In this document: positions 18,392-22,308 of the stretch, in pieces | Position numbering within the stretch: the stretch's first letter is position 1 | How the letters are laid out: the number at the start of each line of letters is the position of its first letter | From: Vulcanimicrobiota bacterium | Lineage (GTDB): Bacteria > Vulcanimicrobiota > Vulcanimicrobiia > Vulcanimicrobiales > Vulcanimicrobiaceae | Length of the DNA: 22,308 nucleotides | Direction: 5' to 3' | Assembly (NCBI GenBank): GCA_019233165.1 | Contig: JAFAMS010000281.1 | Span: forward strand, 1 to 22,308 | Translations under genes and position numbers: made by a program | The notes under the pieces: generated by a model | Database searches by the model: none | The model's input: only the letters and a program-made list of their open reading frames with translations | Told to the model about the DNA's origin: nothing

Positions 18392-18466
18392 TGGAGGCGA
18401 CGCCCAGACTCGAACTGGGGAATGGAGCTTTTGCAGAGCTCTGCCTTACCACTTGGCTACGTCGCC
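18392..18466 (-). tRNA. tRNA-Cys (GCA)
   Basis: On the minus strand the 7-bp acceptor GGCGACG pairs with CGTCGCC, and the anticodon loop CTGCAAA (anticodon GCA) is closed by GAGCT/AGCTC. The T-arm is CCCAG-TTCGAGT-CTGGG. The discriminator is U and an encoded CCA follows (18394-18392), all correct for cysteine. Confidence 0.97.
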
Positions 18467-18474
18467 GACCGGCT

Positions 18475-18548
18475 TGGAGCGGGTACCGAGAATCGAACTC
18501 GGACGTTCAGCTTGGGAAGCTGACAGGCTACCATTACATCACACCCGC
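18475..18548 (-). tRNA. tRNA-Gly (CCC)
   Basis: The acceptor GCGGGTG pairs with TACCCGC (last pair G-U). The D-arm contains ATGGTAG, the anticodon loop TTCCCAA (anticodon CCC) is closed by TCAGC/GCTGA, and the T-arm is CCGAG-TTCGATT-CTCGG. Encoded CCA is present. It lies eight bases upstream of tRNA-Cys, so the two are a tandem transcript. Confidence 0.96.
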
Positions 18549-18737: not shown

Positions 18738-19535
18738 ATGAACGTCATGAGCAAGCGGCTCGGCGCGCTGTTGCTTGGTTTGGTTCTCGCCCTCGGAGCC
18801 GCCGGCGCGGCGTCTGCCGATCAGACCGAAGATCAAATCGGCGCGCAAGTCTACCAACAACTCGCGCAAAAAGGTGAGATTCTCGACTCCTCGCCCTACT
18901 ACGCCGTCCTCAATCCGATCGCGCGCCAAATCAAGACGGTCGCGGACAAGCAATACGATCGTCCTTTTCGGTTCATCCTCGTCCACGAAACGCAGCCCAA
19001 CGCGTTCTCGGTCCCAGGCGGCAACGTGTACGTCACCGATTCGCTGATCCGGTTCGTGCGAAATCGCGAAGAGCTCGCCGGGGTGCTCTGTCACGAGACC
19101 TCACACACGATCCATCACGACGTCGTCAACAACATGCGCAAGGATCAGAACGTCAGCTTGGCCGCCGGCGTCCTCGAGATTCTCACCGGCGGGCACGGGC
19201 TATCCAACGCCGTGATCGGACTGGGCGCGAACGCGACCGCGCTGAACTTCTCGCGCGCAGTCGAGACGGCAGCGGACCTCAAAGGCGCCGACACGTGCGC
19301 CGAAGCCGGATTCAACCCGTGGGGAATGGTTTGGCTCTTCCAACAGTTCCAGGCAAGCGGAAACGGCGGGACGATGGAGATGCTCTCGGATCACCCGCGC
19401 GACGACCATCGCATCGCGGATCTCGAGCGCCACTTCCGGGCGAACCCGGCGCTGTTCGGATCGTTCAGCCCCGAGATTGCAACCGGGACGCCGCTCTGGA
19501 CGCAGACGCCGCCTCCCGCGGCGTACCAACGGTAG
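18738..19535 (+). CDS. Secreted M48-family zinc metalloprotease
   Basis: This is a 265-residue exported protease. The signal peptide MNVMSKRLGALLLGLVLALG (then AAGAASAD) ends near residue 28. The gluzincin site is LAGVLCHETSHTIHH, where HETSH at 119-123 is the HExxH motif. The third zinc ligand is probably Glu176 in FSRAVETAADLKG, followed by the family's AEAGFNPWGM and the SDHPRDDHRIADL tail motif. With no transmembrane helices other than the signal it resembles BepA/LoiP-type soluble M48 proteases that handle envelope quality control. The start may be 18738 or the in-frame ATG at 18747; neither has a clear ribosome-binding site. Its stop lies five bases before the promoter-like start of the aromatic leader. 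Confidence 0.9.
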   Translation: MNVMSKRLGALLLGLVLALGAAGAASADQTEDQIGAQVYQQLAQKGEILDSSPYYAVLNPIARQIKTVADKQYDRPFRFILVHETQPNAFSVPGGNVYVTDSLIRFVRNREELAGVLCHETSHTIHHDVVNNMRKDQNVSLAAGVLEILTGGHGLSNAVIGLGANATALNFSRAVETAADLKGADTCAEAGFNPWGMVWLFQQFQASGNGGTMEMLSDHPRDDHRIADLERHFRANPALFGSFSPEIATGTPLWTQTPPPAAYQR

Positions 19536-19540
19536 CGTGC

Positions 19541-19571
19541 TTGACACTACCCAGGGGGCCTATGGTTGAAT
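19541..19571 (+). promoter_or_regulatory. Candidate promoter of the aromatic leader operon
   Basis: A consensus -35 TTGACA (19541-19546) lies five bases after the M48 stop. The best -10 candidates are TTGAAT (19566-19571, spacer 19) or TATGGT (19561-19566, spacer 14). Both are imperfect. With the first, transcription would start near 19578, almost at the ATG at 19580. Confidence 0.45.
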
Positions 19572-19663
19572 GGCTGGGTATGACCGCGGCGGATTTCTCG
19601 TATTTCGCGTATTTCTTTAGCTGGGCGGAGGCGCCGCTTCGGCCGAGAAGGGTACGCGCGTAA
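19562..19663 (+). CDS. Aromatic-amino-acid leader peptide of the pheA-aroF fusion
   Basis: This is a 33-codon reading frame. After MVEWLGMTAA comes DFSYFAYFFSW (about residues 11-21), seven aromatic codons in eleven: four Phe, two Tyr, one Trp. A basic tail AEAPLRPRRVRA follows. Ribosomes would stall here when charged tRNA-Phe, -Tyr or -Trp is short. The frame ends 77 bases before the start of the prephenate dehydratase-DAHP synthase gene and upstream of an intrinsic terminator, the classical layout of an attenuation leader. The start is either ATG 19562 (AGGGGG only three bases upstream) or ATG 19580 (nearly leaderless from the TTGACA promoter). Both include the aromatic run. The peptide itself needs no function. 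Confidence 0.82.
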   Translation: MVEWLGMTAADFSYFAYFFSWAEAPLRPRRVRA

Positions 19664-19711
19664 ACGGGATCCCGGCCGGGACCCAAACGTAAGCCCCTCG
19701 CCGAAGCGGCG
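19632..19711 (+). promoter_or_regulatory. Antiterminator: leader tail pairs with the terminator 5' arm
   Basis: Bases 19632-19643, within the Ala-Pro-Leu-Arg codons of the leader, are exactly complementary to 19700-19711 (12 of 12). That second segment lies in the terminator stem, so pairing prevents the terminator from forming. A ribosome stalled on the Phe/Tyr codons (19595-19618) leaves 19632-19643 free; a ribosome moving on through 19625-19660 covers it. Confidence 0.72.
19666..19684 (+). promoter_or_regulatory. Central hairpin of the leader RNA
   Basis: GGG-A-TCCC pairs with GGGA-CCC around a GGCC loop, with one bulged A. It lies between the antiterminator arms just after the leader stop. 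It could act as the pause hairpin that synchronises polymerase and ribosome, and would bring the two antiterminator arms together. Confidence 0.5.
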
Positions 19712-19722
19712 GGGGTCTTTTT
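19694..19722 (+). terminator. Intrinsic terminator/attenuator before pheA-aroF
   Basis: The stem is CCCC (19694-19697), bulged T, CGCCG (19699-19703), loop AAG, CGGCG (19707-19711), GGGG (19712-19715), followed by TCTTTTT. It is nine GC pairs with a U-run, standing before rather than after a gene. Confidence 0.85.
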
Positions 19723-19725
19723 GTT

Positions 19726-19731
19726 AGGAGG
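19726..19731 (+). promoter_or_regulatory. Consensus Shine-Dalgarno AGGAGG of pheA-aroF
   Basis: AGGAGG stands nine bases before the ATG at 19741, directly after the terminator U-run. Translation should be efficient once the attenuator is read through, so control is mainly transcriptional. Confidence 0.8.
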
Positions 19732-19740
19732 CTTTTTTCG

Positions 19741-21510
19741 ATGATCGGGGCGTTCGAAGGGATCGACGGCGCACATTCACAGCTGGCGCTCGACGCCTAT
19801 TTCAAAGCGCGCGCGTTGACGAGCGCGTCGACGCTCGGGACGCCGAGTTTCCGCAGCGCCGCGGTCGCCGTCTCCGCAGGTCGCGCCGACGTTGGGATCG
19901 TCCCCATCGACAACGCGATCGCAGGTACGGTCCGCGACGGCTACGATCTGCTCCTCGAGTTCGATCTCGTTCCGATCGCCGAGATCGTCTGGCGAATGGA
20001 CCATCGGCTCCTCGGGGTTCCGGGCGCGACGCTCGACGGCGTCCGCGAGATCCTCGCACATCCGCTGGTGATGGCCGAATGCGGGAAGTTTCTTGCAAGC
20101 CTCCCGAACGCGCGCGCCGTCCCGTGCGAGGACACCGGGATCGCCGCCCGCGAGGTCGCGCGCAGCGGGAATGCGGCGCTCGCAGCAATCGCGCCGCCGA
20201 GTGCCGCCGTCCGTTACGAGCTCATCGAGCTCGCGCCGCGCGTCGCCGACCATCCCGAGAACTTCACGCGCTTCATCGTTTTCCGCGCGCGCGGCAGCTC
20301 GGATCCCGGTTACGCGGTCGACGAGAGCGACGGGCCGCGCAAGACGTCCCTGGTTCTCGTCACCTCGAACGCGCCCGGCTCGCTCGCGCGCTGCCTCGCG
20401 GTAATCGCGCAGGCCGGGATCAGCCTGGCGAAGCTCGAGTCGAAGCCGACGCTCGGACGACCGCAGCAAGCCGAGTTCTATCTCGACATCGACGGCGATC
20501 TTCTCGACCCGGATCATGCCGGCGCGCTCGCCGCTCTCCGCTCCGCGGCGCTCGATCTGCGGATGATCGGAAGCTATCGCGCGAACGCGCACGTCGCCGT
20601 CGCCGCTGCGGCCGCGGCGCCGCACGTTCCGCTTTCGGTGATCCGGGACGTCCTCCCCAAGCCTCCGAAGAGCGCGTCGTCCTCGTCGGCGACGCCGCGC
20701 GCGGCGCGCGATTCGCGCCCGCACGGGACGCGCGTCCGTGTCGACGGCGTCGAGATCGGCGACGGCAGCTTCACGATCATCGCCGGCCCTTGCTCGGTCG
20801 AATCACGCCAGCAAGTCCTCGAAACGGCGTTCTCCGTGCGCGACGCCGGCGCGCTCATGCTGCGCGGCGGCGCGTTCAAACCGCGGACGAATCCGTACGC
20901 CTTCCAGGGACTCGGTTGGGACGGCGTGGGGCTTCTCGCCGAAGCTGGCCGCGCGACCGGACTTCCGACGGTGAGCGAGGTGATGAGCATCGATCAGGTC
21001 GAGCGAATGGCATCGCAGATCGACGTCCTACAGATCGGCGCCCGCAACATGCAGAACTTCGATCTTCTCAAAGCGGTCGGCCGGACGGGGAAGCCGGTGC
21101 TGCTCAAGCGTGGGCTCTCGGCAAGCATCGAAGAGCTCATCGCGGCCGCCGAGTACGTCATGTCTGAAGGGAATCCGAACGTGATCTTGTGCGAGCGCGG
21201 GATTCGCACGTTCGAAACCGCGACGCGGAATACGCTCGATCTTTCCGCCGTTCCGGTCTTGCGCGAAAAGACCCATCTCCCCGTGATCGTCGATCCCAGT
21301 CACGGTGTCGGCGTGCGGCGCTGGATCGCCCCGATGTGCCGCGCCGCCAAAGCCTCCGGCGCGCACGGGATCATCGTCGAAGTCCATCCGAACCCGCCCG
21401 AGGCGCTCAGCGACAAAGATCAGGCGCTCACGTTCGACGACTTCCGGGCGATCGTCGCCGAGCTCGAACGCGTCCCCGTCTTCACCGGAGCGACGCCGGT
21501 CGAGGTATGA
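19741..21510 (+). CDS. Prephenate dehydratase (with ACT domain) - DAHP synthase (type I-beta) fusion
   Basis: This 589-residue bifunctional enzyme joins the first step of the shikimate pathway to the step committing prephenate to phenylalanine. Residues 1-185 are prephenate dehydratase: GIDGAHSQLAL, PIDNAIAGTV near 55-64 and the catalytic Thr-Arg-Phe at 176-178 (NFTRFIVF). Residues 200-280 are an ACT domain (APGSLARCLAVIAQAGISLAK, ESKP), the usual Phe sensor. An Ala/Ser/Pro linker (285-330) leads to DAHP synthase of the AroF/KDO8P-synthase-like class: AGPCSVES (348-355), LRGGAFKPRTNPY (374-386), RNMQNF, LLKRG and VDPSHGVG (517-524). No chorismate mutase domain is fused. The stop overlaps the aroA ATG. 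Expression is probably set by the attenuator upstream. The order dehydratase-DAHP synthase is unusual to my knowledge. Confidence 0.93.
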   Translation: MIGAFEGIDGAHSQLALDAYFKARALTSASTLGTPSFRSAAVAVSAGRADVGIVPIDNAIAGTVRDGYDLLLEFDLVPIAEIVWRMDHRLLGVPGATLDGVREILAHPLVMAECGKFLASLPNARAVPCEDTGIAAREVARSGNAALAAIAPPSAAVRYELIELAPRVADHPENFTRFIVFRARGSSDPGYAVDESDGPRKTSLVLVTSNAPGSLARCLAVIAQAGISLAKLESKPTLGRPQQAEFYLDIDGDLLDPDHAGALAALRSAALDLRMIGSYRANAHVAVAAAAAAPHVPLSVIRDVLPKPPKSASSSSATPRAARDSRPHGTRVRVDGVEIGDGSFTIIAGPCSVESRQQVLETAFSVRDAGALMLRGGAFKPRTNPYAFQGLGWDGVGLLAEAGRATGLPTVSEVMSIDQVERMASQIDVLQIGARNMQNFDLLKAVGRTGKPVLLKRGLSASIEELIAAAEYVMSEGNPNVILCERGIRTFETATRNTLDLSAVPVLREKTHLPVIVDPSHGVGVRRWIAPMCRAAKASGAHGIIVEVHPNPPEALSDKDQALTFDDFRAIVAELERVPVFTGATPVEV

Positions 21511-22308
21511 CCGCCGTTACGCCTGCGCGCGGCTTGCGCGGCACGATTCGCGTCCCCGGCGACAAATCGATCGGACACCGCGCGCTGTTTCTCGGCGCGC
21601 TCGCCGAAGGGACGACGCACGTCGCGGGTCTTTCCGACGGCGACGACGTGGCCTCGACGCGGCGGTGCTTGACGGCGCTCGGCCTCGACGTTCGTGACGG
21701 CGCGAGTCGCGGTTCGATCGCGATCGAGGGGAGCGCGGGCCACCTCTCGCCGCCGAGCGGCGTCCTCGATTGCGGAAACTCCGGGACGACGATGCGGCTG
21801 CTGGCGGCACTGCTCGCCTCGCAACCGTTCGCGGCGATCCTCGACGGCGACGCATCGCTTCGTTCGCGTCCGATGCGGCGAATCGCCGAGCCGTTGCGGG
21901 AAATGGGAGCGCAGGTCGAGCTCTCGAGCGGCGACGTCGCGCCAATTCGAATCCGCGGCGGGTCGTTGCACGGGATCCGCTACACGCTCCCGATTGCGAG
22001 CGCACAGTTGCGCACCGCCCTGATCTTCGCCGGGCTCGCGGCGAGCGGAACGACGCGGCTCGAAGGAAAGCTCGGCGCGCGCGATCACACGGAGCGCATG
22101 CTCCCGCTTTTCGGCGGCGCCCTCGAGCTGGACGACGGCCATCTTACGCTCCATGGCCCGCAACGTTTGCGCGCTCCCGCCGCCGAGCTCGTCGTCCCCG
22201 GCGATCTCTCGAGCGCCGCTTACTGGATCGCTGCGGCCACGATCGTTCCCGGTAGTCGAATCGAGATCGAGTGCGTCGGTCTCAACCCGACGCGAATCGG
22301 TTTCATCG
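21507..22308 (+). CDS. aroA: 3-phosphoshikimate 1-carboxyvinyltransferase (EPSP synthase) AroA, 3' end cut by window
   Basis: AroA condenses shikimate-3-phosphate with PEP to give EPSP, the sixth shikimate step. The visible 267 codons show RGTIRVPGDKSIGHRALFLGAL with substrate-binding Lys20, Ser21 and Arg25, LDCGNSGTTMRLLAALLA, SLRSRPMRRIAEPLREMGAQ, LPIASAQLRTALIFAGL, ARDHTERMLPLFG and PGDLSSAAYWIAAATIVPGS. Gly replaces the frequent Ser after Ile in the first motif, and Arg replaces the frequent Lys after SAQ-hydrophobic. The GNSGTT form resembles Bacillus-type enzymes more than that of E. coli. The ATG overlaps the upstream stop (ATGA), so it is co-translated with the fusion enzyme and falls under the same attenuator. 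About 160 further residues are expected beyond the window. Confidence 0.96.
   Translation, partial: MTAVTPARGLRGTIRVPGDKSIGHRALFLGALAEGTTHVAGLSDGDDVASTRRCLTALGLDVRDGASRGSIAIEGSAGHLSPPSGVLDCGNSGTTMRLLAALLASQPFAAILDGDASLRSRPMRRIAEPLREMGAQVELSSGDVAPIRIRGGSLHGIRYTLPIASAQLRTALIFAGLAASGTTRLEGKLGARDHTERMLPLFGGALELDDGHLTLHGPQRLRAPAAELVVPGDLSSAAYWIAAATIVPGSRIEIECVGLNPTRIGFI

Follow-up and report, generated by a model that had tools for sequence, protein, structure and literature searches.

A candidate aromatic leader-peptide attenuator ahead of a prephenate dehydratase–DAHP synthase fusion gene in Eremiobacterota

A short reading frame rich in aromatic codons lies directly ahead of an aromatic amino acid biosynthesis gene in an Eremiobacterota genome rated 80% complete, and this locus raises the question of whether the frame is a regulatory leader peptide or a chance frame beside the terminator of a neighbouring gene. 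The stretch of DNA analysed here (contig 31 of that genome; 22,308 nt) is referred to as the window. The first-pass annotation of this DNA had read the region as an attenuator, and sequence comparison with related loci supported that interpretation. The element is very probably a ribosome-mediated transcription attenuator of the trpL/pheL type, which most likely lets this uncultured bacterium keep its aromatic amino acid pathway off unless Phe, Tyr and Trp run short.

Organization of the window locus

An M48 peptidase gene ends at 19535, just ahead of the element, whose parts are listed below together with the genes that follow.

19541–19546, plus strand: putative −35 box TTGACA, of which TTGAC is present in 31/31 leader loci
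19566–19571, plus strand: putative extended −10 (TGG TTGAAT), 8 nt upstream of the start codon, the top-scoring hexamer with an upstream TG
19580–19663, plus strand: leader peptide ORF MTAADFSYFAYFFSWAEAPLRPRRVRA with its stop (TAA, 19661–19663), probably leaderless; aromatic run at 19592–19624
19583–19681, plus strand: protector pairing between leader codons, including the aromatic run, and the stretch after them (z −1.53 in the window)
19636–19654, plus strand: region 2, the antiterminator strand, beginning 11 nt past the last aromatic (Trp) codon; duplex with 19693–19706
19693–19725, plus strand: intrinsic terminator (regions 3:4), GCCCCTCGCCGAAGCGGCGGGGGT + CTTTTTGTT, a hairpin (19693–19716) and then the T-run tail CTTTTTGTT
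19726–19731, plus strand: Shine-Dalgarno sequence AGGAGG of the structural gene
19741–21510, plus strand: prephenate dehydratase – ACT-like – DAHP synthase fusion, 589 residues (PF00800, PF00793)
21507–22308, plus strand: aroA (EPSP synthase; PF00275), overlapping the fusion by 4 bases and cut by the window end

The short frame encoding DFSYFAYFFSW, the intrinsic terminator behind it, the consensus ribosome-binding site before the ATG and the fused nature of the gene product had all been named in the first-pass annotation, and each was recovered. In the fusion protein PF00800 covers residues 4–183 and PF00793 residues 336–570, and the ACT-like region is assigned indirectly from a weak, below cut-off match to TIGR01268 (residues 199–268); prephenate dehydratase models extend to residue 282–288 with scores also below their cut-offs. 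Two ATG codons, 19562 and 19580, are in frame with the window leader, the former falling within the putative promoter, and promoter geometry indicates that 19580 is most likely the start used. Two tandem tRNA genes lie at 18395–18548 on the minus strand, and a similar tandem pair was observed upstream of the gene in sister genome G048 (L005, 3521–3711).

Distribution and composition of the leader

When 103 genomes of the order were searched in six frames, at least 34 genes carrying both domains were identified, plus several pieces; one of these genes (G095) is without its first 36 residues. A search of the phylum returned a match at E ≤ 1e−100 in 39 of 149 genomes and contributed one extra DAHP synthase, from a genome in another family (G117, locus L094, CADDZI010000026). 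Close fusion homologues came mostly from records named Candidatus Eremiobacterota, Eremiobacteria, WPS-2 or 'bacterium'. Among the matches listed, 39 loci had readable upstream DNA and were assessable; G062 was left out for N in the leader region, and G095, G032 and G093 because the contig ends within the gene or immediately upstream of it, or because only a fragment is present. Aromatic runs with changing flanks, which the annotation had proposed to look for upstream of homologues, were found in 31 of these 39 Eremiobacterota loci, representing 16 genera, and all 31 combined a TTGAC box, an in-frame ATG or GTG 37–42 nt after the first base of that box, an aromatic run and a terminator located between leader and gene.

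The element was absent from the remaining eight loci, all of genus g35 (G081–G088). One of them (L019) holds a frame that reaches 4 aromatics per 10 codons and extends to the gene and two (L012 and L017) reach a maximum of 3, and these loci were scored as lacking the element because their best hairpins measured −7.0 to −13.8 kcal/mol or none was found. A maximum-likelihood tree was built from 36 fusion proteins, of which 30 were from Eremiobacterota, six g35 proteins among them. These six grouped with four leader-bearing genes in a clade of 10 rows (100/99). As g35 is nested among leader-bearing genes, its lack of the element is most simply read as a loss of the leader. The earliest-branching g35 member (L012, G081) has a TTGAC box about 89 nt upstream of its fusion and no aromatic leader; the box is perhaps a remnant.

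Outside Eremiobacterota, 26 of 63 loci with fusion homologues were scanned, and the gene start was near enough for a fair test only in three Polyangiaceae loci (L063, L064 and L068). These encode the closest fusions found outside the phylum (about 60% identity), with no leader detected: none has a frame with 4 aromatics or a strong terminator (best −13.5 kcal/mol), and their genes fell outside the Eremiobacterota rows of the tree (97/94). In most other outside loci the 420 nt scanned resembles an in-frame N-terminal part of the gene (chorismate-mutase-like by eye), so that absence of a leader cannot be read off there; L105 offered merely 62 nt of upstream sequence, and L090 has one frame with 4 aromatics far upstream. 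Homologues without run and terminator, which the annotation had counted against its own reading, thus exist in g35 and Polyangiaceae, but the former are nested among leader-bearing genes, the latter lie outside the phylum, and every leader locus has a terminator. At nine loci of stand-alone DAHP synthase paralogues a single frame reached 4 aromatics and no terminator turned up, by an insensitive finder that missed 2 of 6 leader-locus terminators; a better finder was used for the 31 loci.

The genes behind the leader vary. Sister genome G048, of the same genus as the window, carries fusion-aroA-aroE-aroC-aroK-aroB on one strand, comprising most of the shikimate pathway, while chorismate mutase and tyrA come after the fusion in G046 and, by similarity, in nine further loci. 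In genus g31 (L098 and L099) the leader precedes a DAHP synthase fused to chorismate mutase, with a separate prephenate dehydratase next (called by eye and from a phylum-search match); the domains there are shuffled and the leader is retained. In L094 the leader stands before a stand-alone DAHP synthase followed by chorismate mutase and tyrA. As the leader is retained before both the chorismate mutase fusion and the stand-alone enzyme, its constant partner is DAHP synthase, the entry step, and the earlier tie of the leader to the prephenate dehydratase fusion as such does not hold.

The leader start codons were chosen within a band of 35–43 nt from the TTGAC box, so the tightness of the observed spacing arises partly by selection. 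An extended TG was present at −10 in 30/31 loci under a scoring that itself rewarded TG. The window spacer is 19 nt, against 17–18 in most relatives, and a simple promoter scan of 19400–19800 returned nothing at its cut-offs. The best −10 hexamer lies 7–12 nt before the start codon, which puts that codon close to the expected transcription start. SD-like 4-mers precede 1/31 leader starts versus 26/31 gene starts, in a test that favoured the gene side by allowing any in-frame start from −90 to +3. Given this −10 spacing and the single SD-like 4-mer, the leader mRNA is probably leaderless.

Of the leader codons 24% are aromatic, against 6% and 7% in the two alternative frames, a comparison to be read with the leader frame having been picked for its aromatic run, and 5% in downstream genes. 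The runs themselves differ (for example FAYWYYYF, AYAYWYSF, WSYRYFYA, WASYYRYGW and RFPDFSF). TTT serves for 40/57 Phe codons in leaders versus 82/406 in genes, and TAT for 43/94 Tyr codons versus 59/278. Seven aromatics in 10 codons, as in the window, occurred in 0/500 dinucleotide shuffles of the 200 nt from −35 box to gene start, and 30/31 loci exceeded 95% of their own shuffles in aromatic density; the weakest leader has 3 aromatics in 10 codons, consistent with G089, and the opposite strand reaches at most 3 per 10. A leader bearing all three aromatic residues had been proposed to fit the fusion. The window leader does contain them (4 Phe, 2 Tyr, 1 Trp), but only 16/31 leaders have all three, nine being without Trp, five without Phe and one without Tyr. 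No clear link was found between this mix and operon content, Trp occurring in 5/11 leaders with tyrA behind and in 4/4 with aroA next.

Terminator, alternative pairings and modelled stalling

Terminators were present in all 31 leader loci, with stabilities of −17.5 to −34.7 kcal/mol, the window hairpin being the weakest (−17.5); the same criterion gave at best −13.8 in the eight g35 and three Polyangiaceae loci. In 11/31 loci the tail just reached the required 4 T in 9. The fold of 19545–19725 as a whole was no more stable than shuffles (z −0.92; 39/200 at least as stable).

The best duplex between region 2 and the terminator 5' arm begins 5–17 nt past the last aromatic codon across the 31 loci. 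For the window this duplex has −20.2 kcal/mol, a value matched by 12% of shuffles, and in single-locus tests 9/31 fell at or under 5% of shuffles (mean z −1.42), the duplex being no better than shuffles in G055, G046 and G045. When one locus from each of the 16 genera was compared, region 2 paired with its own terminator at −20.3 kcal/mol versus −17.9 (sd 0.56) for permuted partners (0/20,000 permutations as good; 4/20,000 with the terminator arm trimmed to 14 nt), although in 6/16 genera at least seven of the 15 foreign terminators would be better partners for region 2 than the native one. The protector pairing behaved similarly, with −28.9 for own and −24.9 for permuted partners (0/20,000; 16 genera), and at single loci 13/31 fell below z −1.64 and several had positive z. 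The stem covariation suggested as a check by the first-pass annotation was thus observed between genera, and the features of an attenuator, an antiterminator overlapping the terminator 5' arm and a protector pairing, are present on the locus set and weak at single loci.

A ribosome placed in silico at a middle aromatic codon gave a mean antiterminator pairing of 0.82 in comparison to 0.15 at the stop codon, and the contrast ran in the same direction in 31/31 loci. Shuffling region 2 lowered the stalled value to 0.47, with 27/31 loci at or under 10% of 40 shuffles. In the window itself antiterminator pairing was still 0.71 in the modelled stop-codon state, and all three modelled stall positions favoured the antiterminator in the partial transcript (0.92–0.99); in the full-length model, stalls at the middle and last aromatic codons abolished the terminator and a first-codon stall did not. 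Many relatives retained a dominant full-length terminator at equilibrium despite the stalled ribosome (median 0.94), so that switching there must be kinetic, during RNA synthesis.

From these reading frames, promoter-like boxes with their spacing, terminators, alternative pairings and co-variation, we infer a course of transcription start, translation, stalling and read-through, and the amino acids to which it responds, as follows. Transcription would start at or beside the leader ATG, and the leader would therefore be read as a leaderless mRNA. With charged aromatic tRNAs plentiful, the ribosome would clear the F/Y/W run and cover the stretch behind it, the terminator would form and transcription would end ahead of the gene. 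A ribosome stalled in the run would instead break the protector pairing, region 2, just ahead of it, would pair with the terminator 5' arm, and RNA polymerase would be expected to read through into the fusion gene and the shikimate genes behind.

Rival readings and known leaders

The hairpin could serve the M48 peptidase gene, which ends a short way upstream, with the aromatic frame arising by chance and no regulation involved; however, the shuffles leave a small chance for such a frame, and promoter-like boxes, leader and terminator occur together in 31 loci with co-varying pairing, which makes this account extremely improbable. We consider it just as improbable that the RNA senses a metabolite or tRNA directly, as a riboswitch or T-box with an incidental aromatic frame. 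Letters near 19576–19588 faintly resemble a T-box motif by eye, but they coincide in part with the leader start and, again by eye, are absent from the G048 sister locus. Rfam searches at gathering scores, covering the window and 18 of the 30 remaining leader loci, matched nothing but tRNAs, and a search of 19500–19760 at E up to 5 gave three weak hits far below cut-offs, none of them a T-box or amino acid leader. In other systems leader peptides can affect the translation or stability of the gene RNA, and the leader ribosome might act here mainly in that manner rather than on termination; this is very unlikely, as the window hairpin is followed by a T-run, 24 nt separate its end from the gene, and the SD sequence of the gene lies outside the hairpin.

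A closer contest concerns which amino acids count. The same attenuator may in practice heed one amino acid, Phe or Tyr, as described for AroR of Corynebacterium, which has Phe-Tyr-Phe yet, according to a review, responds by ribosome-mediated attenuation to Phe but not Tyr limitation (PMC11802643). The leaders without Trp, Phe or Tyr and the failure of the first-codon stall to remove the full-length window terminator are consistent with such a restriction, but the composition of the window leader and the antiterminator favoured from every stall position in the partial transcript argue for a broader response. We consider the restricted form a serious possibility, if somewhat short of an even chance, and a ribosome-mediated attenuator remains the preferred reading in either form.

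E. coli pheL and trpL are single-amino-acid leaders with SD sites; the present element resembles them in its regulatory codons and in the order of protector, antiterminator and terminator, but E. coli pheA encodes a chorismate mutase-prephenate dehydratase rather than a DAHP synthase fusion. The aroR leader of C. glutamicum aroF is credited to Neshat et al. 2014. It is reported as a Phe-Tyr-Phe leader before this DAHP synthase gene (PMC11802643; PMC4046766), and the former source names the E. coli pheL-pheA and trpL-trpEDCBA attenuators. The aroR system is thus alike in having an aromatic leader peptide before a DAHP synthase gene, but belongs to another phylum, has no Trp mentioned in those accounts and is described as preceding a DAHP synthase instead of the fusion; the likeness would be functional only, and common descent is not claimed. 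In Acholeplasma, the uORFC-13-1 motif upstream of aroF includes a uORF that was proposed to sense Phe (PMC8632094); this uORF has one or more Phe codons and similarly stands ahead of a terminator and the DAHP synthase gene, but the motif is reported there only from Acholeplasma and environmental sequences, has an extra conserved substructure and comes with no report of an F/Y/W mix. Leader ORFs that begin at the transcript 5' end are reported for S. meliloti trpL (PMC7298713) and for S. lividans trpL1, leuL1 and ilvL (PMC8079986); those concern Trp, Leu or branched-chain amino acids and draw on RNA data, in contrast to promoter spacing here.

The attenuation mechanism is already known, and Corynebacterium aroR is a precedent for an aromatic leader ahead of DAHP synthase. 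In line with the earlier statement that no such leader was known to be described for this type of fusion, full-text literature searches brought up, among the matches listed, no account of an element of this kind for Eremiobacterota or ahead of a prephenate dehydratase–DAHP synthase fusion. With the comparative support given here, leader-peptide attenuation of aromatic biosynthesis would now include a phylum that is familiar chiefly through metagenomes. The 31 leaders with differing Phe/Tyr/Trp mixes before the same enzyme form a natural series, in which the relative weight of three amino acids in a single attenuator can be put to the test. Were the transcript start as proposed, leaderless translation in attenuation would reach beyond Actinobacteria and Alphaproteobacteria, the groups in which it was found reported. 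It is also possible, though less likely than not, that an ancestral leaderless pooled sensor, acting as an OR gate on Phe, Tyr and Trp tRNAs, sets shikimate entry in Eremiobacterota, with the F/Y/W mix re-tuned in each lineage as the operon changes (shikimate genes, chorismate mutase-TyrA, prephenate dehydratase fusion).

A scan upstream of trpE at 19 loci found Trp-rich short frames at six, of which L126, L132 and L134 have weak hairpins only. The other three, L125 (G029; MIVRLAAWYRWHWLLGVQR), L129 (G058; MRLVLSWWWQVSVRSGR) and L136 (G117; MNPYLARRWWRTCPLRKPAVRR), are accompanied by strong terminator-like hairpins of −21.5, −19.5 and −27.7 kcal/mol, respectively, and are probably Trp attenuators in the same phylum.
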